From an uncultured Nitratifractor sp. (GTDB lineage: Bacteria; Campylobacterota; Campylobacteria; Campylobacterales; Sulfurovaceae), in NCBI GenBank assembly GCA_947311565.1, contig CAMZLH010000013.1, forward strand, positions 1 through 33,970: a stretch of 33,970 bases of DNA, read 5' to 3'. Shown here piece by piece: positions 7,663 through 27,632 of the stretch; position 1 is the stretch's first letter, and each line of letters starts with the position of its first letter. The notes under the pieces were generated by a model. The model saw nothing but the letters and a program-made list of their open reading frames with translations, searched no databases and was not told the DNA's origin. The translations under genes were made by a program, and so were the position numbers.

Positions 7663-8889
7663 ATGATACAATCATTAACAGGTATGCAAGATATTGTTGG
7701 CGACGAGGCAAAAAAGTATAACTATGTTGTAAACAGTGCAAAAGAGGTGTTAGAAAATTATGATTTTGACTTTCTAAAGATGCCAATGCTAGAAAAAACT
7801 GAGCTTTTTATTCGCTCTGTTGGTGGAAGTAGCGATATTGTAAATAAAGAGATGTATCGCTTTATAGACAAAGGCGAAAACGATGTATGTCTAAGACCAG
7901 AAGGAACAGCAGGGGTTGCAAGATATTTTGTGCAAAATAAGCTAGATAGACAACCACAAAAGTTTAAATTCTACTACCACGGCTCTATGTTTAGATATGA
8001 GCGACCACAAAAGGGGCGATACAGAGAGTTTAACCAATTTGGCTGTGAAAGCTTTGGCGAAGAGAGTGTTTATGAAGATTACGCAATTATAGAGATGGCA
8101 TCTGCTATTTTAGATAAGCTTGATATTAGCTACAAACTAGAGTTAAACTCTCTTGGTTGCAAAGAGTGCAGACCAAAGTATATAGAGAGTTTAAAAGAGT
8201 TTTTAAGAGATAAAAAAGATAAACTATGCGAAGATTGCAACAGAAGATTAGAGCAAAACCCTCTAAGAGTTTTAGACTGCAAAGTGCAAAGTTGTCAAGC
8301 TGAGTATGAAGATGCACCAAAAATTACAGATAATCTATGCGAAAGTTGCGACACTGATTTTAGAAAACTAAAAGAGCTTTTAGATAACAATAGTATAAAT
8401 TACGAAGTAAACAAAAAGCTTGTTCGTGGTTTAGATTACTATAACAAAACTATTTTTGAATTTATTAGCGATAAAATAGGAGCACAAGGGACAGTAATTG
8501 GTGGTGGAAGATACGATGGTTTAATAAGCTATCTTGATGGTAAAGAGACACCAGCAGTTGGCTTTGGTATGGGGGTAGAGAGAGCAATGTTACTAACCAG
8601 TCTGCCAAGCACTCAAAATTGTGGCTACCACCTTGGTGCAATGGATGAAGAGGCACTTAGTAGCATAATATCTCTTACAAAAAGTGTTAGAGTTAGCCAT
8701 AAAGCAACCCTAGAGTATAAGCCTAAAAAGCTAAAAGCTCTACTAAAGGGTGCAGATAAAGCCAATGCAAAATATTGTGTGGTAATTGGTGAAAATGAGC
8801 TTAAAGAGGGTAAAGTGTGGTTGAAAGATTTGGTAACAAAAGATGAGAGCACACCAACAATTGATGAGTTTTTAAATAGTATAAAGTAG
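7663..8889 (+). CDS. hisS: Histidyl-tRNA synthetase
   Basis: This 408-aa class II aminoacyl-tRNA synthetase charges tRNA-His. Motif 2 is seen as MFRYERPQKGRYREFNQFG, the histidine-specific loop as LVRGLDYYNKTIFEF, and motif 3 as VGFGMGVERAML. The C-terminal anticodon-binding domain occupies about residues 320-408. The middle insert is rich in cysteine pairs (CKECRP, CEDC, CESC), suggesting a small zinc-binding or degenerate zinc-ribbon region. The ATG follows the tmk stop directly. It is distinct from the HisZ paralog at 23845-24690, which lacks the anticodon domain. Confidence 0.97.
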   Translation: MIQSLTGMQDIVGDEAKKYNYVVNSAKEVLENYDFDFLKMPMLEKTELFIRSVGGSSDIVNKEMYRFIDKGENDVCLRPEGTAGVARYFVQNKLDRQPQKFKFYYHGSMFRYERPQKGRYREFNQFGCESFGEESVYEDYAIIEMASAILDKLDISYKLELNSLGCKECRPKYIESLKEFLRDKKDKLCEDCNRRLEQNPLRVLDCKVQSCQAEYEDAPKITDNLCESCDTDFRKLKELLDNNSINYEVNKKLVRGLDYYNKTIFEFISDKIGAQGTVIGGGRYDGLISYLDGKETPAVGFGMGVERAMLLTSLPSTQNCGYHLGAMDEEALSSIISLTKSVRVSHKATLEYKPKKLKALLKGADKANAKYCVVIGENELKEGKVWLKDLVTKDESTPTIDEFLNSIK

Positions 8890-14150: not shown

Positions 14151-14693
14151 CTACTTAACTCTAACTCCATAAGTATCTATAAATTTAATATCTTTACCAA
14201 CAATAAACCTTGCTCTTATAATATAACGACCTGGTTTTTTTACCAATAATGAGTCGACTCTATAAAGACCTCTATCACCTTTTACTTTAATTATTGGTAA
14301 ATCGTCTTCATTGGTGCCAGGTTTAGTAAGAAGTATAGAGACATTTGCATCCACACCTTTACCATCTTTACTACTTATAAAGTAACTAAATGTATTAGAT
14401 TCATTTAACCCAACATATCTATGTGGCTTACGCTTTAAATTTTTAGGCTTAAACTCTACATGCTCTAATCCACTAATTTTGATACTATATTTACTATCAA
14501 ATCTTTCTGCAGACTCTTGCATAAGGTCAGCATTAACATCGGCATCTTGATATTTCATCATAAATGCATTCGACTCTCTAACAGGTAGAGATATAGTATT
14601 TTTTATTGTCCAGTAGCCTAATGTTATTCCTATAAATAGAAAGCCTAAAATCATATATGGCCAAAATTTTCCACTATCATCTTTTTTGCTCAT
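14151..14693 (-). CDS. FixH-family membrane protein
   Basis: This 180-aa protein has one N-terminal transmembrane helix (about 12-32) and a periplasmic beta-rich domain ending in KKPGRYIIRARFIVGKDIKFIDTYGV, resembling the FixH/CcoH group involved in cbb3 oxidase maturation. AAGGATAATT precedes the ATG. It sits 90 bases after the TPM-like gene and directly abuts addB. Its place downstream of ccoNOQP supports an assembly role, but similarity to FixH is by layout rather than strong motifs. Confidence 0.7.
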   Translation of the reverse strand: MSKKDDSGKFWPYMILGFLFIGITLGYWTIKNTISLPVRESNAFMMKYQDADVNADLMQESAERFDSKYSIKISGLEHVEFKPKNLKRKPHRYVGLNESNTFSYFISSKDGKGVDANVSILLTKPGTNEDDLPIIKVKGDRGLYRVDSLLVKKPGRYIIRARFIVGKDIKFIDTYGVRVK

Positions 14694-14783: not shown

Positions 14784-15371
14784 TTAACTCTTTAATTTTC
14801 TAAAAAGTGGAGCAATGAAATATATCCAAATTACTATTAAAGAACCTATAATAATTAAACTATTTACAACTCTAAGTACCCAACTTGTTCCATCTTTAAT
14901 TGTTGTTGTTAATTCTACACCTTTGCTCTTAGCTACTTCATCTGCTAATTCAGAATAGGCTTGAACCATACCAACATCATATTTAGATTGGTTAGAGTTT
15001 TTATCTTCGCTTGCTATAACTTTTATAGCATAATCTAAAATTTCATCTTTATCCAAACTATTTAGTTGCTCTTTTGGTTCAGCAACCAAATGTATTCTTC
15101 TAGAGTTTGGTACAAATACAATTGCTACATATGGTTTGCTTAAACTACTACTATACTTTTTTACATAATCATATACACTTATACCTCTATCTAACTTATC
15201 GTTAGTTGTAATAATATAACTATTAACTCCACTCTTTTGCTTTAATTCAGAACCCATTTTTTCAATAAAATCGGCTGCTTTTGGTGAAATTAAGTGATCA
15301 TTAAATAGATAATTAGCGTATAGATTAAATGAGAGTAGTAGAGTAAGCAAGGCAAACCTTGCTTTTCTCAT
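14784..15371 (-). CDS. TPM-domain-like membrane-anchored periplasmic protein
   Basis: This 195-aa protein has a signal peptide (about 1-19, cleavage likely after NLYA), a periplasmic alpha/beta domain resembling the TPM fold (VNSYIITTNDKL, YVAIVFVPNSRRIHLV), and a C-terminal transmembrane helix (about 166-190) with a short basic tail. TPM proteins have been tied to photosystem repair and to membrane protein quality control, so a role in cbb3 oxidase assembly or turnover is a fair guess. It starts four bases after the 29-codon gene, whose last codons carry its AGGA. No catalytic residues are recognised. Confidence 0.7.
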   Translation of the reverse strand: MRKARFALLTLLLSFNLYANYLFNDHLISPKAADFIEKMGSELKQKSGVNSYIITTNDKLDRGISVYDYVKKYSSSLSKPYVAIVFVPNSRRIHLVAEPKEQLNSLDKDEILDYAIKVIASEDKNSNQSKYDVGMVQAYSELADEVAKSKGVELTTTIKDGTSWVLRVVNSLIIIGSLIVIWIYFIAPLFRKLKS

Positions 15372-15375
15372 ATAT

Positions 15376-15465
15376 TTATCCTACAAATAGGTGATTAGGA
15401 GTTAAAACAGACCAAGCTGTAATAGCCGCTGCTATAACTATTAGTAGTGTTATTAATTTAAGCAT
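15376..15465 (-). CDS. 29-aa single-helix membrane peptide in the cco operon
   Basis: The frame reads ATG to TAA for 29 residues, beginning MLKLITLLIVIAAAITAWSV and ending in PNHLFVG: almost entirely one transmembrane helix. GGAG lies six bases upstream, directly after the DUF4006 stop, and the spacings to both neighbours (10 and 4 bases) are those of an operon. The AGGA for the next gene lies in its final codons. Small one-helix subunits are common in cytochrome oxidases, so this could be an accessory or assembly peptide of the cbb3 enzyme. It is easily missed by gene finders because of its length. Confidence 0.75.
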   Translation of the reverse strand: MLKLITLLIVIAAAITAWSVLTPNHLFVG

Positions 15466-15475
15466 TCTGTACTCC

Positions 15476-15709
15476 TTATAGTTTACTTACATCAAACTTA
15501 GCATTATCAGTGCTACTTGCTTTAATATTTTTAAAGCCCTCTTCGCCTGTTATCTTAGTACCATCATAAGGCTTTGTAACTGCATCTCTTTGAACTACAA
15601 TTGATTGAGAGACTAAAAAGAATAGTATACTTAATAGTAACACTGTCGCTATTAACATACCAGTAATTCCGTTTAGTTTAAACAAGCCTCTACTTGTATT
15701 TTCTGCCAT
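15476..15709 (-). CDS. DUF4006 family protein
   Basis: This 77-aa protein has a single transmembrane helix (about 15-38, GITGMLIATVLLLSILFFLV) and a short hydrophilic C-terminal tail. DUF4006 proteins are small membrane proteins found downstream of ccoP in Campylobacterota, and this gene is in just that position, nine bases after the ccoP stop. An assembly or stability role in the cbb3 oxidase is likely but unproven. Confidence 0.85.
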   Translation of the reverse strand: MAENTSRGLFKLNGITGMLIATVLLLSILFFLVSQSIVVQRDAVTKPYDGTKITGEEGFKNIKASSTDNAKFDVSKL

Positions 15710-15718
15710 AATCGCTCC

Positions 15719-17248
15719 TTACTTAATAACCGCGATATCAACGCGTCTATTCTCTTTATTATCATCTGAAATTGGCTCATCAGAACCCATACCACTTACA
15801 AGAACATTACTAGCATTTACACCTCTAGCAATAAGTGCTTGCTTAACTGATTCAGATCTTTTAGCCGATAAAGCTCTATTTTTGTCTGCATTACCAGTAT
15901 TATCTGTATGTCCTCTTACCATAACTTTAACAGCTGGGTGCTCTTTAAGAGCCGCAGCAATATCATCTAACTGAGCTTTTGACTTATCACTTAAATTTGC
16001 AGATGCAGTTTCGAAAAATACACCCTTAAGAATATAAGCTCTAACAGATGCACTCTCGCCATTAATATCAGATACAATTGCTTTCTCTTCTGCTGCAGCA
16101 TCGCCAACAACTACTTTAGCAGCTGGTGCTTCTGCAGATGCTTTTGCAGCCGCTTCTGCATCTGCTGCAGCTTTTGCTTCTTCGTCAGCTTTTGCTTTTG
16201 CAGCCGCTTCTGCATCTGCTGCAGCTTTTGCTTCTTCATCAGCCTTCGCTTTTGCTGCTGCATCTGCTGCAGCTTTTGCTTCTGCATCTGCTTTTGCTTT
16301 TGCTTCTGCGGCTTTAGTAGCTTTTATTGCAGCTTCTTTTGCTTCTGCTTCTGCTTGATCAGCACCAGATAAGCTAGAAATATATGCTGCAAGAGCTTTA
16401 TCTTGAACTGGTGTAAATCTATTTACAAATGATGGCATTTCACCAATTGAACCATGTTTACCATTAGTAAGAACTTGAGCAACCAAAGTTGAATCAAAAT
16501 ACTTTAAGTTAGGAGCTTGACCACCATTACCAGTACCATCAGCACCGTGGCAAGCTGTACAAGCTGCAAAAGAAGCTGGTGCTTCACCTTTTAAACCACC
16601 TGCAACATATGCTGCAATATCTTCTGCATCTTTACCAGATGCCATACCTGCAGGCATAGCACCCATTGGATATTTAAAGTAGTGTGAACCATTATTGATA
16701 ACACTTAAAACTTGCTCTTTGCTCATTCTTTTTGTTAAATCATGCGCCTTACCATCAAGACCATCACCACTATTACCATGACAAGGAGCACACTGTACTA
16801 AGAATATTGACTCACCCATATTTTTTAGTGTCTCTTTATCTGCATTTTTATTCTTCTCTTCAAATGCTTTATTGTAAGCTTTTGTCTCTTCATTCCAAGT
16901 ACCAATTTGACTATATGCATTTACTGGATACCCCATTAGCATATACCAAATAGCCCAAATAAGTGTACCTACATACGACCAAGCCCAACCAGATGGAACA
17001 TCATTTTTATACTCACCAATTCCATCCCAATTATCCTCTGCCAACTCACCTGTTGCTGTGTCTGTCTTCATCTGTTGCATATACTTTGCAGATACACCAA
17101 AAGAAAGAACTGCAATTGCAATTGCACCGATAAATGTAATCATATTTATCGGATCACTTAAGTCAATATTCATCTGCTTAACAACAACTAATGTTCCAAT
17201 AATTAGAACACCAGCCATTACTAGAGCTTTGACTATCATACCATTCAT
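15719..17248 (-). CDS. ccoP: cbb3 oxidase diheme subunit CcoP fused to an OmpA-type peptidoglycan-binding domain
   Basis: This 509-aa protein is about 200 residues longer than usual CcoP. Residues 1-298 look like CcoP: hydrophobic segments at about 5-24, 34-53 and 88-107, then two cytochrome c domains with CAPCH (153-157) and CTACH (230-234). These pass electrons to CcoO and CcoN on the periplasmic side. Residues about 299-378 are an Ala/Lys/Glu/Asp-rich, helix-forming linker like that of TolA, with an 18-residue tandem duplication. Residues about 405-509 are a complete OmpA C-terminal domain: GVFFETASANLSD, GHTDNTG with Asp449, and NRALSAKR with Arg464. That Asp-Arg spacing of 15 equals the diaminopimelate-binding pair of Acinetobacter OmpA. 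The frame is unbroken. It would fasten the oxidase to the cell wall. GGAG lies upstream of the ATG within the ccoQ end. Confidence 0.95.
   Translation of the reverse strand: MNGMIVKALVMAGVLIIGTLVVVKQMNIDLSDPINMITFIGAIAIAVLSFGVSAKYMQQMKTDTATGELAEDNWDGIGEYKNDVPSGWAWSYVGTLIWAIWYMLMGYPVNAYSQIGTWNEETKAYNKAFEEKNKNADKETLKNMGESIFLVQCAPCHGNSGDGLDGKAHDLTKRMSKEQVLSVINNGSHYFKYPMGAMPAGMASGKDAEDIAAYVAGGLKGEAPASFAACTACHGADGTGNGGQAPNLKYFDSTLVAQVLTNGKHGSIGEMPSFVNRFTPVQDKALAAYISSLSGADQAEAEAKEAAIKATKAAEAKAKADAEAKAAADAAAKAKADEEAKAAADAEAAAKAKADEEAKAAADAEAAAKASAEAPAAKVVVGDAAAEEKAIVSDINGESASVRAYILKGVFFETASANLSDKSKAQLDDIAAALKEHPAVKVMVRGHTDNTGNADKNRALSAKRSESVKQALIARGVNASNVLVSGMGSDEPISDDNKENRRVDIAVIK
16142..16249 (-). 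repeat. 54-bp tandem duplication in the CcoP linker
   Basis: Two copies of a 54-bp unit start at 16142 and 16196 and are nearly identical at DNA level over their first 48 bases. Each encodes one 18-residue block, ADEEAKAAADAEAAAKAK or a close variant. The flanking linker contains shorter, more diverged copies of the same pattern. The near identity suggests a recent duplication and possible length variation between strains. Confidence 0.8.
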
Positions 17249-17253
17249 ATCAT

Positions 17254-17472
17254 CTACTCCTTTTTATCATTACTAGCTTTAAGATTCTCATCTAACAATT
17301 TACTATCTAGTTCATCATCTAGTACTAGAGAACTGTATTTTTCAAAATCTTTCTCACCCTTTTTCTCACTACGATAGAGATATATTATATAGCTGTATAG
17401 TAATACTACTAATATACCTGCCATTACAGTATACATAATTACTTGTAACTGCTGTAGCTCTTCTAAACTCAT
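17254..17472 (-). CDS. ccoQ: CcoQ-like small cbb3 oxidase subunit
   Basis: This 72-aa protein has one transmembrane helix (about 12-33, VIMYTVMAGILVVLLYSYIIYLY) followed by a charged cytoplasmic tail (RSEKKGEKDFEKYSSL). Size, topology and position between ccoO and ccoP fit CcoQ, a stabilising subunit of the oxidase. The sequence itself is weakly conserved in this family, so the call rests mainly on context. It starts seven bases after ccoO and ends five before ccoP. Confidence 0.85.
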   Translation of the reverse strand: MSLEELQQLQVIMYTVMAGILVVLLYSYIIYLYRSEKKGEKDFEKYSSLVLDDELDSKLLDENLKASNDKKE

Positions 17473-17479
17473 ATCAACC

Positions 17480-18148
17480 TTACTTTAACTTATTCAAATA
17501 AGCAATTAATGCAACAACTTCTGGAACTTTACCAGACTTTACTGCTTTAATTAAGTCTTCTCTTTTTGTTGCTTTAGCAACTTTTAGAGCTTCTGGTATA
17601 ATTTTAGACTTTAATCTAGCCTCATATGCCTCTTTACCTGGCTTAATACCATCATCATAAGGTGTATTAAATACAGTTTTCACTGTTACAGCCTCTGCAT
17701 ATGCAGTCTCTAAATCTGCAGCATTAGTAAACTGATGCTTATATGCTGGCATAATAGAATCTGGAACTAAATCTTTTGGATTCCACATATGGTTTGCATG
17801 CCAATCAGATGTTCTATAGTTACCAATTCTATGTAAATCTGGACCAGTTCTTTTAGAACCCCAAAGGAATGGTCTATCATAAGCATACTCTCCACTTAGT
17901 GAATATTGACCATATCTGTCTGTTTCAGATTTAAATGGTCTAATTAACTGTGAATGACAAGCAATACAGTTATCTTTTTTATAAACCTCTTTACCTGCTA
18001 ACTCTAATACAGTATAAGGCTTAAGACCTTTAACTGGTCTAGCCTTATCTACAAAGTTTGGTAAAATCTCAATAAGACCTGCGTAAGCGATTACTACAAA
18101 TACTCCAACCGCAAAGAAAAACGGATTTTTTTCTAACCAATGAAACAT
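17480..18148 (-). CDS. ccoO: cbb3-type cytochrome c oxidase monoheme subunit CcoO
   Basis: This 222-aa subunit carries electrons from CcoP to the catalytic subunit. It has one N-terminal membrane anchor (about 9-30), the heme-c motif CIACH (61-65) and a probable axial methionine at 133 in DSIMPAYKHQF. The SQLIRPF and TGPDLHRIG segments are typical of CcoO. Twelve bases separate it from ccoN. Confidence 0.96.
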   Translation of the reverse strand: MFHWLEKNPFFFAVGVFVVIAYAGLIEILPNFVDKARPVKGLKPYTVLELAGKEVYKKDNCIACHSQLIRPFKSETDRYGQYSLSGEYAYDRPFLWGSKRTGPDLHRIGNYRTSDWHANHMWNPKDLVPDSIMPAYKHQFTNAADLETAYAEAVTVKTVFNTPYDDGIKPGKEAYEARLKSKIIPEALKVAKATKREDLIKAVKSGKVPEVVALIAYLNKLK

Positions 18149-18160
18149 ATTATCTCCTCC

Positions 18161-19627
18161 TTAAGCCATAGGTGATCTGTATCTAGGCTCTTGCTCAAGT
18201 CTTCTACCTGCTGTTGCAGTTTTAAAGAAGTTCCAAGCGAACATAAATACACCAATTAGGTATAGTAAACCACCAAGTGCTCTAATTGCATAGTATGGGT
18301 GTAATACAGAAACTGTATCGATAAAGCTATATACCAAGTTACCATACTCATCAACAGCTCTCCACATCATACCTTGAGTAATACCTGCAATCCACATAGA
18401 TGTAAAGTATAAAACAACACCTATTGTTTGAATCCAAAATTGCGACTCAAGTAAAGATTTGCTGTAAATCTCTCTTTTAAATACTCTTGGTGCCATATGC
18501 ATAAGAGCAGCAAATATCATAAATGCAACCCAACCAAGTACACCATCATGAACATGTCCTGGAATCCAATCTGTAAAGTGTGCAATTGCATTCACAGATT
18601 TAACCGCCTGAATTGGACCCTCTAGTGTTGAAAGCATATAGAATGTAGATGCAAGAACCATAAACTTAATTAATGGATTTTCAGTTAATTGATTCCACTC
18701 ACCCTTCATTGTAAGAAGCATGTTGATAGCACTTCCCCAAGAAGGTAAAATTAATACAACAGAGAATACAGAACCCATAGTTTGCATCCAATCTGGAACA
18801 GTTGACCAAATTAAGTGGTGAGCACCAGCCCAAAGGTAAACAAACATTAATCCCCAGAATGCTGCAAGAGATAGTTTATAAGAGTAAATTGCTTGACCAG
18901 ACTCTTTTGGTAAAAAGTAGTAAATTATTGCAATAATAGGAACAGTAAATACAAATGCAACCGCATTGTGTCCCCACCACCATTGAATTAGAGCATCATT
19001 TGTTCCTGCATACATAGATACAGAGTGATACCAAGCACCAACTCCACCAGAGAATAACATTGTAGGAACTTCCATATTGTTAAATAGGTAAAGCATTGCA
19101 ACACCAAGGAAACAAGCTATGTAGTACCATAAAGATATATATAGTGTTTTTTCTCTTCTTAGTCCAATAAGACCAAACATTGCAACACCCCAAAGTACCC
19201 AAATAACTACTATTAAGATATCTAATGGCCACTCCATTTGTGCATACTCTTTATTTGCAGTAATACCCATACCAAGTGAAAGTACCATAGATGCTGCTGC
19301 AATTAAGTATAAGAAAAAGTGGAGTTTACCAATACCATTAACTACTTTACTCTCTCCCATAGAAACTTTTAATACTCTTGGTGCAGAGTAGTAAAACGAT
19401 GCCCATACACCACTTAGTGTAAAACCATAAATAACAACATTTGTATGTAGTGGTCTAAGTCTAGAAAATGTTCCATACTCACCAAGTAGGTAGTTTAAAT
19501 CTGGAAATGCAAGTTGTGATGCTATTAGCACACCTATTGTCATTCCAACAATACCAAAGATTACAGCTGTCCAAGTAAACCACTTAGCAACAGTATAATC
19601 ATACTCTAAAGACGCGTTAGACTGCAT
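18161..19627 (-). CDS. ccoN: cbb3-type cytochrome c oxidase catalytic subunit CcoN
   Basis: This 488-aa, twelve-helix protein reduces oxygen to water with high affinity and pumps protons across the inner membrane. All metal ligands of the C-family are visible: heme b His61 and His360, heme b3 His358, and CuB His220, His270 and His271. Tyr264 sits six residues before the CuB pair, as does the cross-linked tyrosine of cbb3 enzymes. An AGGAGG sequence precedes the ATG. It is the first gene of the minus-strand respiratory operon, with a long regulatory upstream region. Confidence 0.98.
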   Translation of the reverse strand: MQSNASLEYDYTVAKWFTWTAVIFGIVGMTIGVLIASQLAFPDLNYLLGEYGTFSRLRPLHTNVVIYGFTLSGVWASFYYSAPRVLKVSMGESKVVNGIGKLHFFLYLIAAASMVLSLGMGITANKEYAQMEWPLDILIVVIWVLWGVAMFGLIGLRREKTLYISLWYYIACFLGVAMLYLFNNMEVPTMLFSGGVGAWYHSVSMYAGTNDALIQWWWGHNAVAFVFTVPIIAIIYYFLPKESGQAIYSYKLSLAAFWGLMFVYLWAGAHHLIWSTVPDWMQTMGSVFSVVLILPSWGSAINMLLTMKGEWNQLTENPLIKFMVLASTFYMLSTLEGPIQAVKSVNAIAHFTDWIPGHVHDGVLGWVAFMIFAALMHMAPRVFKREIYSKSLLESQFWIQTIGVVLYFTSMWIAGITQGMMWRAVDEYGNLVYSFIDTVSVLHPYYAIRALGGLLYLIGVFMFAWNFFKTATAGRRLEQEPRYRSPMA

Positions 19628-23844: not shown

Positions 23845-24690
23845 CTAATCCCTTTGCATCATTTTAGCTATAACTGTGTCGGTATATATTGCAAAACCAG
23901 CACCATTTACGCCTTTTATATTATATTCACCACCTGTTAAATATAGACTCTGCCCATCAAAAGCTCTAAATATTAAAGAGTTATAGTAGTGCATTGGTGC
24001 ATAGTATAGTGGTGAAACTATACAATTTTTACTATCTATATCTTTTGCAATATCTAAAATTTTCAACAACTCCAATCTTATATTATCTGGATATATAGTT
24101 AAATCCTCTAAATCCTCTACAGTTGAGATATTAACTAAACTCTCCATCCAACTATAGCCATAGCTTAAGAGTCTCTCTATTTTAACAGCTGTAATATCTT
24201 CTAACTCTATACTATAGCTATTAATTAATCTATTTGCAAGTGCCATATTAGCTACTTGAAATTTAAAATCGACTCTCATCTCTTTTAGTAACTCTAAAGA
24301 GATATTTGCAATTTCACTTAATGTTCCATCTAATATCTCTGCACCAATTTGGTTCTGCTCTTGTGTTGGAAATGAGAATATAGGTTGTATATAAAACCAC
24401 TTTTTTATATCTTCACTTCTAGCTAACCTATTTGTTGCAATTCTTACAACATCTACAGTAGAGTCTGCTCTTAGACTAACTTCGCTATTATTAGTATCAT
24501 TTACTCTAATTAGAACTCTTCTATCTATAAAACCATCTTGCTGATGGTATGAAAATAGTGGTGTAGATATCTCATTAAACCCAAAACTATCTAGCTTTTT
24601 AGCACTAATAGACTCTATCTCTCTCTTTATCTTAGCGCTTTTTCCAAAGTAGAGCTTGCTTCCACTTGGTATCTCATGCTCTAAAATCAT
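23845..24690 (-). CDS. hisZ: ATP phosphoribosyltransferase regulatory subunit HisZ (class II synthetase-like)
   Basis: This 281-aa protein resembles the catalytic core of a histidyl-tRNA synthetase: an N-terminal motif-1 helix (KIKREIESISAKKLDSFGFNEI), a motif-2-like segment (SLRADSTVDVVRIATNRL then KKWFYIQPIFSF), and YLTGGEYN in place of the His-specific and motif-3 regions. It lacks the anticodon-binding domain and the key catalytic arginines, as expected for HisZ, which activates the short form of HisG in histidine synthesis. It is short compared with HisZ of most bacteria. hisG is not here. Its ATG overlaps the aminotransferase stop by four bases (ATGA). Confidence 0.8.
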   Translation of the reverse strand: MILEHEIPSGSKLYFGKSAKIKREIESISAKKLDSFGFNEISTPLFSYHQQDGFIDRRVLIRVNDTNNSEVSLRADSTVDVVRIATNRLARSEDIKKWFYIQPIFSFPTQEQNQIGAEILDGTLSEIANISLELLKEMRVDFKFQVANMALANRLINSYSIELEDITAVKIERLLSYGYSWMESLVNISTVEDLEDLTIYPDNIRLELLKILDIAKDIDSKNCIVSPLYYAPMHYYNSLIFRAFDGQSLYLTGGEYNIKGVNGAGFAIYTDTVIAKMMQRD

Positions 24691-26106: not shown

Positions 26107-26203
26107 AAAAAATGTGAGGAGTTAGTTTAGCGACTCTCCTCACATGACCTCTGGGAAGGGCTTATAAAAATGGAGTTGTGTCTAAAATTTAAAATAAAAG
26201 ACA
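26107..26203 (-). ncRNA. Predicted small RNA divergent from the first outer-membrane protein gene
   Basis: On the minus strand an extended -10 box (TGCTATAAT, 26218-26210) predicts a start near 26203. A 6-bp hairpin (AGACAC at 26199-26204 with GTGTCT at 26178-26183) would form at the very 5' end. A largely unpaired middle follows with the pyrimidine-rich segments AACUCC and CCCUUCCC. A strong stem ends the RNA: ATGTGAGGAG (26145-26136 read on the plus strand complement) and its complement at 26121-26112, 10 bp with a 14-base loop, then six T. All parts of an independent sRNA gene are present in one direction, in about 97 bases. It matches no RNA family I recognise; it is not SRP RNA, 6S or tmRNA. 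Confidence 0.6.
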
Positions 26204-26208
26204 CCAGT

Positions 26209-26218
26209 TATTATAGCA
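26209..26218. promoter_or_regulatory. Overlapping two-way promoter for the sRNA (minus) and outer-membrane protein gene (plus)
   Basis: The same bases read TATAAT with a TG extension on the minus strand (26218-26210) and TATTAT on the plus strand (26209-26214). The plus-strand start would lie near 26221, 30 bases before the ATG at 26251. TTGTTT about 16 bases upstream of the minus -10 is a fair -35 box. Confidence 0.45.
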
Positions 26219-26250
26219 TAAATTTAATGCAAACAAGGAAAGGTTTAATC

Positions 26251-26874
26251 ATGAAAAAGGTATTTTTTTCATTAATTACAGCTACTGCTCTAAGTAGTAC
26301 ACTATTTGCTGGTAAGAATGTAGCTCCTGCATACATTCCTTCACTGCCAGTACCAGAAAAACCAGCGCAAGAGACACTACCACCTTTAGGTCTGTATATT
26401 GGTGGAGGCTTAACATATGCAAAAAGTGAATGCCAATGTGATAACTCTGTTAGATTTTCAGATGGAACTACAAGTAGAGTTAATACTGGTAAGAGTTATG
26501 GAATTAACTTAAGAGCTGGTTACGATTTTAGTGAATATGTTGGTATTGAGGGTAGATATCTTTACACTCCATGGGGAGATAAAGATAAAACTCTTAAACA
26601 CTATGGTCTATACCTAAAGCCAATGGCAGCTGTTACTGATAATATAGATGTTTATGGTCTACTAGGTTATGGTAAAACAGATTGTGAAACACTTAGTGAG
26701 AGTCAAAAAGGTTTTGCATGGGGTCTTGGTGCTGAGTATCAACTTAGTAAAAAAGAGCAAGGTACTAGTAATGGTTGGGGTGTTTATGCTGAATACTCAA
26801 GACCACTTAAAAAGAGTGGAGATAGAAATATAAAAACTAATGTATTTACTAGTGGTGTAGCTTATCACTTCTAG
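26251..26874 (+). CDS. Outer-membrane beta-barrel protein, paralog 1
   Basis: This 207-aa protein has a signal peptide (about 1-20, cleavage near LFA-GKN), a proline-rich stretch, and then an eight-strand-type small barrel with alternating hydrophobic residues (LGLYIGGGLTYAKS, KSYGINLRAGYDF, YVGIEGRYLYTPW). It ends in aromatic YHF, the usual outer-membrane insertion signal. It resembles opacity/OmpA-barrel-like porin-family proteins of Campylobacterota. Cys61, Cys63 (CQC) and Cys145 are kept in paralog 2. The start at 26251 is chosen for the signal peptide and the AAGGAAAGG upstream; an upstream ATG at 26170 would add 27 non-signal residues. Cargo or function is unknown. Confidence 0.88.
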   Translation: MKKVFFSLITATALSSTLFAGKNVAPAYIPSLPVPEKPAQETLPPLGLYIGGGLTYAKSECQCDNSVRFSDGTTSRVNTGKSYGINLRAGYDFSEYVGIEGRYLYTPWGDKDKTLKHYGLYLKPMAAVTDNIDVYGLLGYGKTDCETLSESQKGFAWGLGAEYQLSKKEQGTSNGWGVYAEYSRPLKKSGDRNIKTNVFTSGVAYHF

Positions 26875-27023: not shown

Positions 27024-27632
27024 ATGAAAAATTTAAGATTAGCAATTGCTTCCGTAGTGATTTTAACAGCATCTGTTCATGCAGGTAAAAATGTTATCGA
27101 GCCACTTTCAGATCCAATACCTGTACCTGTTGTAAACATACCTCTTGGACTATATTTAGGTGGAGGATTAACATACACAAGCAGTAAATGTCAATGCTCT
27201 ACAGATGTTAAATTTTCAGATGGCAGCACAAGTAGAGTTAGTAGTGCTAAAACATATGGTTATAATCTAAAAGCTGGTTATTTTATTAACAAATTTTTAG
27301 CAGTAGAAGCAAAATATATCTACACTCCATGGGGAGATAAAAACTCTAAATTAAAACACTATGGTGCTTATCTTAAGCCTGTATTTGCAGTTAGTGAAAA
27401 TCTAGATTTATATGCACTATTAGGTTATGGAATTACTGATTGTAATAGACTTAATGCATCTCAAAAAGGGTTTGCATGGGGTGCTGGTGCTGAATACACT
27501 GTAAATAAAAAAGTAGATGGGCAACGAGATGGAGTGGGTCTATACGTAGAGTATCTAAGACCTTTAAAGAAAACTGGTAATAAAAATATTACTGTAGATA
27601 TGGTAAATGCTGGCGTTAGTTACCACTTTTAA
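27024..27632 (+). CDS. Outer-membrane beta-barrel protein, paralog 2
   Basis: This 202-aa protein has a signal peptide (about 1-20, HA-GKN) and a small barrel ending VSYHF. It is clearly a tandem duplicate of the preceding gene: GLYxGGGLTY, SKCQCSTDVKFSDGS, YTPWGDK, KHYGAYLKPV, LLGYG and SQKGFAWG all align. Cys56, Cys58 and Cys140 match the three cysteines of paralog 1. AAGGA precedes the ATG by seven bases. The N-terminal proline-rich spacer and the loops differ most, as expected for surface-exposed regions. Confidence 0.88.
   Translation: MKNLRLAIASVVILTASVHAGKNVIEPLSDPIPVPVVNIPLGLYLGGGLTYTSSKCQCSTDVKFSDGSTSRVSSAKTYGYNLKAGYFINKFLAVEAKYIYTPWGDKNSKLKHYGAYLKPVFAVSENLDLYALLGYGITDCNRLNASQKGFAWGAGAEYTVNKKVDGQRDGVGLYVEYLRPLKKTGNKNITVDMVNAGVSYHF

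Follow-up and report, generated by a model that had tools for sequence, protein, structure and literature searches.

A CcoP subunit of cbb3 oxidase with an in-frame arm and predicted peptidoglycan-binding OmpA domain in Nitratifractor

Introduction

Respiratory complexes of bacteria are usually regarded as free to move within the inner membrane. A 33,970-nucleotide stretch of DNA from an uncultured Nitratifractor sp. (contig CAMZLH010000013.1; the window, in what follows) raises the question of whether one such complex may be held to the cell wall. Within it, the CcoP subunit of a cbb3 oxidase runs on in frame into a low-complexity linker and an OmpA-C domain, from which a sequence-only reading had proposed a wall-tethered oxidase. 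The answer depends on whether the fusion is genuine, on how it is distributed and conserved among relatives, and on what its parts can be predicted to do.

Results

A single frame joins a complete CcoP to an OmpA-C domain

The fusion gene has 509 codons and lies on the minus strand, a strand that the sequence-only reading did not give; read on the plus strand, positions 15719-17248 have stops throughout. Its parts are as follows.

15719..17248, minus strand: ccoP-OmpA fusion gene, a single frame of 509 aa with ATG start and TAA stop
16364..17248, minus strand: CcoP part, residues 1-295, diheme and complete, with 74-81% identity to full-length unfused CcoP of the genus
within 16364..17248, minus strand: three hydrophobic helices of CcoP, about residues 2-25, 33-55 and 86-111
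within 16364..17248, minus strand: c-heme sites CAPCH (153-157) and CTACH (230-234)
16151..16363, minus strand: Ala/Lys/Glu/Asp arm, residues 296-366, predicted by AlphaFold2 as a continuous helix, about 10.6 nm if straight
16019..16150, minus strand: second linker part, residues 367-410, a low-confidence stretch followed by a short helix at about 384-396
15743..16018, minus strand: OmpA-C domain, residues 411-502, with D449 and R464 (PF00691; Foldseek matches 3td5 and 3td4)

All protein coordinates first read from the letters were right, including the heme sites starting at 153 and 230 and the spacing of 15 residues between Asp449 and Arg464. Four Pfam domains follow one another, each above its cut-off: FixP_N at 67-114 (PF14715, E 3.7e-16, 59.0 bits against a cut-off of 24.9), Cytochrome_CBB3 at 145-215 (PF13442, E 3.8e-18), Cytochrom_C at 227-293 (E 8.7e-7) and OmpA at 411-502 (PF00691, E 1.6e-22, 80.1 bits against 27.2). 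The curated CcoP model TIGR00782 gives the fusion 111.7 bits, and the unfused CcoP proteins of its genus and order reach 114-124 bits, likewise below its cut-off of 179.95, which is thus unsuited to this lineage. With an N-terminus that is that of CcoP, and with 67.3 of 125.35 bits for TIGR02802 and 84.1 of 175 for YiaD, the fusion has no Pal or lipoprotein identity.

The low-complexity linker occupies residues 296-385, as had been described, and consists of 47 A, 14 K, 12 E, 8 D, 3 V and six others. Some 20-25 residues beyond 385 precede OmpA, giving an arm of about 110 residues from the heme domain to the OmpA fold. Its DNA contains imperfect tandem repeats of 48-54 bases, and its charges are spaced as in single alpha helices, with 19 opposite-charge i,i+4 pairs per 90 residues. 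Domain II of TolA is a long Ala/Lys/Glu-rich helix across the periplasm, and the likeness to TolA is one of arm composition only; the fusion has no match to TolA domain III or to a TolQR-type helix, and no TolA family match was found in Pfam or among the listed NCBIfam matches.

The tail sits within an intact cco operon

The genes around the fusion are the following.

18161..19627, minus strand: ccoN, catalytic subunit I (TIGR00780, above cut-off)
17480..18148, minus strand: ccoO, monoheme subunit II (TIGR00781, above cut-off)
17254..17472, minus strand: ccoQ, 72 aa (FixQ, PF05545, above cut-off)
15476..15709, minus strand: ccoX-like gene, 77 aa, DUF4006 (PF13179, E 8.2e-23), starting 9 bases past the fusion stop
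15376..15465, minus strand: ccoY-like gene of 29 aa containing a single hydrophobic stretch; only position and size support the assignment
14784..15371, minus strand: ccoZ-like gene, with a weak TPM-domain match below cut-off
14151..14693, minus strand: ccoH-like gene, 180 codons, with an N-terminal membrane helix and no family match, assigned by position

Judged by gene content and order, the locus is an intact ccoNOQP-X-Y-Z-H; for Y, Z and H the assignment relies on gene order, size and weak similarity. The same order, ccoNOQPXYZH, is known from C. jejuni, where ccoX is a DUF4006 protein, ccoY has 33 aa, X, Y, Z and H are required for full oxidase activity, and ccoZ co-migrates with subunits of the oxidase and of the bc complex (PMC8267372). 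The ccoZ-like gene at 14784-15371 (minus strand) is conserved in the operon, yet it has only the sub-threshold TPM match and no NCBIfam match.

A ribosome-binding sequence and the ccoX start lie directly 3' of the stop in fused and unfused ccoP alike, so the tail sits just before the stop codon and leaves the operon undisturbed. Because this is the sole ccoP-type gene (one FixP_N match in a genome that is 99.99% complete), all cbb3 complexes of the organism would bear the tail.

A second species carries the same fusion and its tail is conserved

Among the 12 genomes of the genus, the fusion was found in one further species (G048), whose protein (L006, 539 aa) has the same domain order and shares the junction LSG, the operon position and the downstream ccoX. 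The two oxidase cores have 74.4% amino-acid identity (dN 0.196, dS 0.94) and the two OmpA tails 84.7% (dN 0.090, dS 0.70), which gives a dN/dS of 0.13 in the tail and 0.21 in the core, approximate values in that both dS estimates approach saturation. The similar dS of core and tail disfavours a recent swap of the tail alone. The D449/R464 pair and the GHTD motif are intact in the second species. The arms, of 92 and 108 aa, can hardly be aligned and have their Ala/Lys/Glu/Asp make-up in common; a length and character kept without the sequence point to a spacer joining two selected domains. We conclude that the ccoP-OmpA fusion is genuine and beyond chance, with the same junction in a second species and a tail under strong purifying selection.

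Residues 31-43 of the L006 fusion form a 13-residue insertion, GIHATSSFPFIEV, between membrane helices one and two, which at full length occurs in no unfused relative of the alignment.

The fusion is known from two species of the genus

In eight other genomes of the genus the 3' end of ccoP is visible, with a stop near residue 297; ccoP was not found in two incomplete genomes (G065 and G071). Across the family (175 genomes), the specific tail occurs on CcoP only in the two fused species among the matches listed. Searching the order (399 genomes) with a profile of the whole fusion gave, among the matches listed, a full span for the Nitratifractor gene only, the remainder ending at about 297-320 of the protein in open frames of at most 366 aa. 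No frame exceeded 331 aa among the matches listed in a FixP_N scan of the phylum (397 genomes), and a scan of 84,980 species, with one genome per species, recovered close relatives only. Further fusions of independent origin may exist beyond the matches listed. At 41 unfused ccoP loci, the flanking sequence showed no OmpA motif.

These comparisons bear on two doubts raised with the sequence-only reading: that an assembly join made the fusion, or that relatives keep ccoP and an OmpA gene as separate neighbours. The same fusion stands in a second genome, and unfused relatives do stop at about residue 297 but have no neighbouring OmpA gene, so an assembly join is unlikely, and so is a split gene. 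As far as sequence comparison can tell, the tail is a derived, selected addition to CcoP.

The tail probably derives from OmpA proteins of the family

On an rpoB tree, the two fused species (G000, the source of the window, and G048) form one clade with the unfused G077 (support 100/99), and the tree does not separate the three: a topology with the fused species as sisters is not rejected (AU p 0.31), but in the CcoP tree G048 pairs weakly with G077. The pattern may reflect a single gain and a later loss, a single gain shared by two sister species, or transfer. In both fusions the loop preceding NRRVDI is five residues shorter than in the nearest unfused relative of the tail, and this shared shortening favours a single origin. 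As G077 belongs to the same clade and has no tail, the tail is dispensable in a close relative.

That nearest unfused relative (L079, 322 aa) comes from another genus of the family (genome G044) and forms a three-member clade with the two tails (support 99.7). A single hydrophobic helix at its N-terminus is followed by a linker and OmpA, so that it resembles a stand-alone membrane-to-wall link, and it is 48% identical to the tail over 128 residues. In the tree it stands beside long coiled-coil OmpA proteins from its own genus. The linker segment AEEKAIVSDI (about 384-396; AEEEAxIIADI in the comparison with L079) is common to both fusions and L079. L079 shares with the fusion this segment and OmpA, and differs from it in standing alone, in having a hydrophobic helix of its own and in a linker of unrelated sequence. 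With its nearest relatives in the family, the tail would thus stem from the family's own OmpA pool. GC and GC3 of tail and core match within each gene in both fused species; acquisition of the tail from outside was rejected on this agreement and on the nearest relatives lying in the same family.

L079 (1097-2065, plus strand), a possible donor type found in one genome only, also has acidic repeats. The next nearest relatives of the tail are very long coiled-coil proteins of family genus g8 (L102 and other loci of L099-L107), with repeated heptad-like units of about 60 residues, OmpA-C at the end and open frames of up to 1801 aa.

Structural models predict a long arm and a wall-binding fold

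An AlphaFold2 model of the full-length protein, built on 14 sequences, has three N-terminal helices, a helix at 296-366 and the strand-helix order of OmpA-C. Its mean pLDDT is 62 and its pTM 0.38, with 365-406 at especially low confidence, and the reach and rigidity of the arm are therefore estimates. The arm helix itself has a pLDDT of 82-89 at 310-350, and its predicted length of about 10.6 nm agrees with the proposal of a helical arm long enough for the purpose. Lysines follow the second of the three hydrophobic helices, which would place the heme domains and the C-terminus in the periplasm.

Modelled alone, the tail reaches a pLDDT of 75 and a pTM of 0.71 and matches the A. baumannii OmpA structures 3td3-3td5 with an rmsd of 1.7 A, 37% identity and Foldseek E-values of 1e-8 to 1e-7. 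Two of these are crystal structures with meso-DAP ligands, DAP itself in 3td4 and a DAP pentapeptide in 3td5, as fits the complete OmpA-C domain and DAP-binding pair that had been read from the letters. Further fold matches were Pal, EAEC TagL (7bba) and H. pylori MotB (3cyp). The GHTDNTG block and the following Arg align with 3td3, and D449 and R464 correspond to Asp271 and Arg286, the residues with which A. baumannii OmpA binds DAP (PMC5974059).

The genome's MurE scores above its cut-off and carries DNPR. In MurE, DNPR is the motif of DAP-adding enzymes, and the wall of the host would accordingly be predicted to contain meso-DAP.

Discussion

We consider it probable that the fusion is a cbb3 CcoP with a predicted C-terminal peptidoglycan tether, and from its parts we infer both wall binding and purpose. 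The tail would emerge from the second heme domain into the periplasm, and an arm of about 110 residues, 71 of them as one helix of about 10.6 nm, would reach the wall. There, D449 and R464 would clamp the meso-DAP of peptide stems, so that every cbb3 complex would be held to the wall. The likeliest effect would be mechanical or positional: an abundant inner-membrane complex would double as a wall link, and its free diffusion would be curbed. Electron transfer need not change, because the arm begins past the last heme domain. We lean slightly towards a benefit to the envelope over a benefit to the oxidase, because L079 stands alone and the tail is more conserved than the core.

The wall-tethered oxidase proposed earlier therefore stands as the best reading of the fusion, the arm, the OmpA-C domain, the periplasmic placement and a wall of the DAP type. 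The accompanying suggestion of an envelope lacking a full Tol-Pal link is not supported: a search covering the TolB and Pal components found TolB, which passes the NF003124 cut-off, and a Pal-like lipoprotein (109 of 125.35 bits).

In this genome a CpoB-like TPR gene comes after tolB, and pal lies neither between nor beside them (L139, 409-2451, contig C44), and the Pal-like lipoprotein lies elsewhere, beside ksgA (L027, 1453-2070, contig C16).

Taken further, the tether could mean an oxidase permanently fixed to peptidoglycan, which would be the first wall-anchored respiratory complex, a link in the envelope and a site-bound reducer of O2. We give this about an even chance. A bc complex may be attached as well, since ccoZ is present.

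A possible but clearly less probable explanation is that the tether serves the envelope alone, with an abundant inner-membrane carrier of a wall anchor replacing a stand-alone OmpA protein and the oxidase unchanged. This fits the nearest tail relative, a stand-alone helix-linker-OmpA protein, and also fits a tail that is conserved beyond the core beside unaltered catalytic parts. However, the genome has other OmpA proteins (two lipoproteins, one Pal-like and one of YiaD type, and a long OmpA protein). In unfused members of the genus no L079-type gene was found, so a replacement would be conjectural.

We regard as improbable that the product is a polyprotein, cleaved in the periplasm to give a normal CcoP and, separate from it, an OmpA fragment bound to the wall. 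The poorly ordered lower arm (367-406) could offer a protease site, but the main helix is predicted to be well ordered, a long arm is kept in both species, and comparison of the two arms brings out no conserved sequence resembling a cleavage site. Lower still do we rate a nearly neutral passenger whose wall binding was lost or never present: such a passenger would suit a tail known from two species and absent from the close relative G077, but not one with a lower dN/dS than the core and with binding pair and motif intact in both. The chance that an assembly error or a misread stop codon linked ccoP with an ompA-like gene is negligible, since although both fusion genomes are fragmented assemblies, the second species shows the same junction and operon position at 74% core and 85% tail identity, ccoX comes directly next in both, the unfused ccoP flanks fetched hold no OmpA gene, and GC and GC3 agree.

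A tethered CcoP would combine features of several known systems. With the CcoP/FixP proteins of Campylobacterota, such as that of C. jejuni, the fusion shares FixP_N, two heme sites and the N-O-Q-P-X-Y-Z-H order, and its core has 70-81% identity with the family's unfused CcoP proteins; the arm and OmpA, about 210 residues, are found in no other CcoP examined. The MotB/PomB stator and the long form of T6SS TagL/TssL are likewise inner-membrane complexes held to peptidoglycan through a C-terminal OmpA-like domain, whereas the fusion has neither an ion-channel plug nor secretion parts, its cargo is a respiratory oxidase and its spacer is a long Ala/Lys/Glu helix. OmpA/Omp38, Pal, YiaD and YfiB share the OmpA-C fold and the Asp/Arg DAP pair, but these are outer-membrane proteins and lipoproteins, and in the fusion CcoP provides an inner-membrane anchor. 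The CcoP-cytochrome cy fusion of PDB 6xkx, a presumably engineered construct, also has an extra C-terminal domain and shows that this position tolerates additions; there the added part is an electron carrier, in contrast to the predicted wall-binding domain of the Nitratifractor tail.

Each part is already known, and the combination of CcoP with OmpA-C appears to be new. The sequence-only reading knew of no description of such a fusion; likewise, we found none in the open-licence literature, nor an example in the genomes examined other than those of the two fused species, and database-only or unpublished examples may exist in other phyla.

If the tether is real, respiratory proteins can act as structural links of the envelope, and OmpA-C anchoring, so far a matter of motors and secretion systems, would reach into bioenergetics. 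Close relatives with and without the fusion would then offer a ready comparison of how far oxidase mobility, clustering and supercomplex formation bear on respiration.

Two further observations concern other genes of the window. Adjacent genes at 26170-26874 and 27024-27632 (both plus strand) encode small outer-membrane barrels that match OMP_b-brl and, in the second, OmpA_membrane as well; neither has an OmpA-C domain at its end, and both lie on the same 33,970-nt stretch as the oxidase that bears one. Two proteins with a histidyl-tRNA-synthetase core are encoded at 7663-8889 (plus strand) and 23845-24690 (minus strand), the second being short and HisZ-like.
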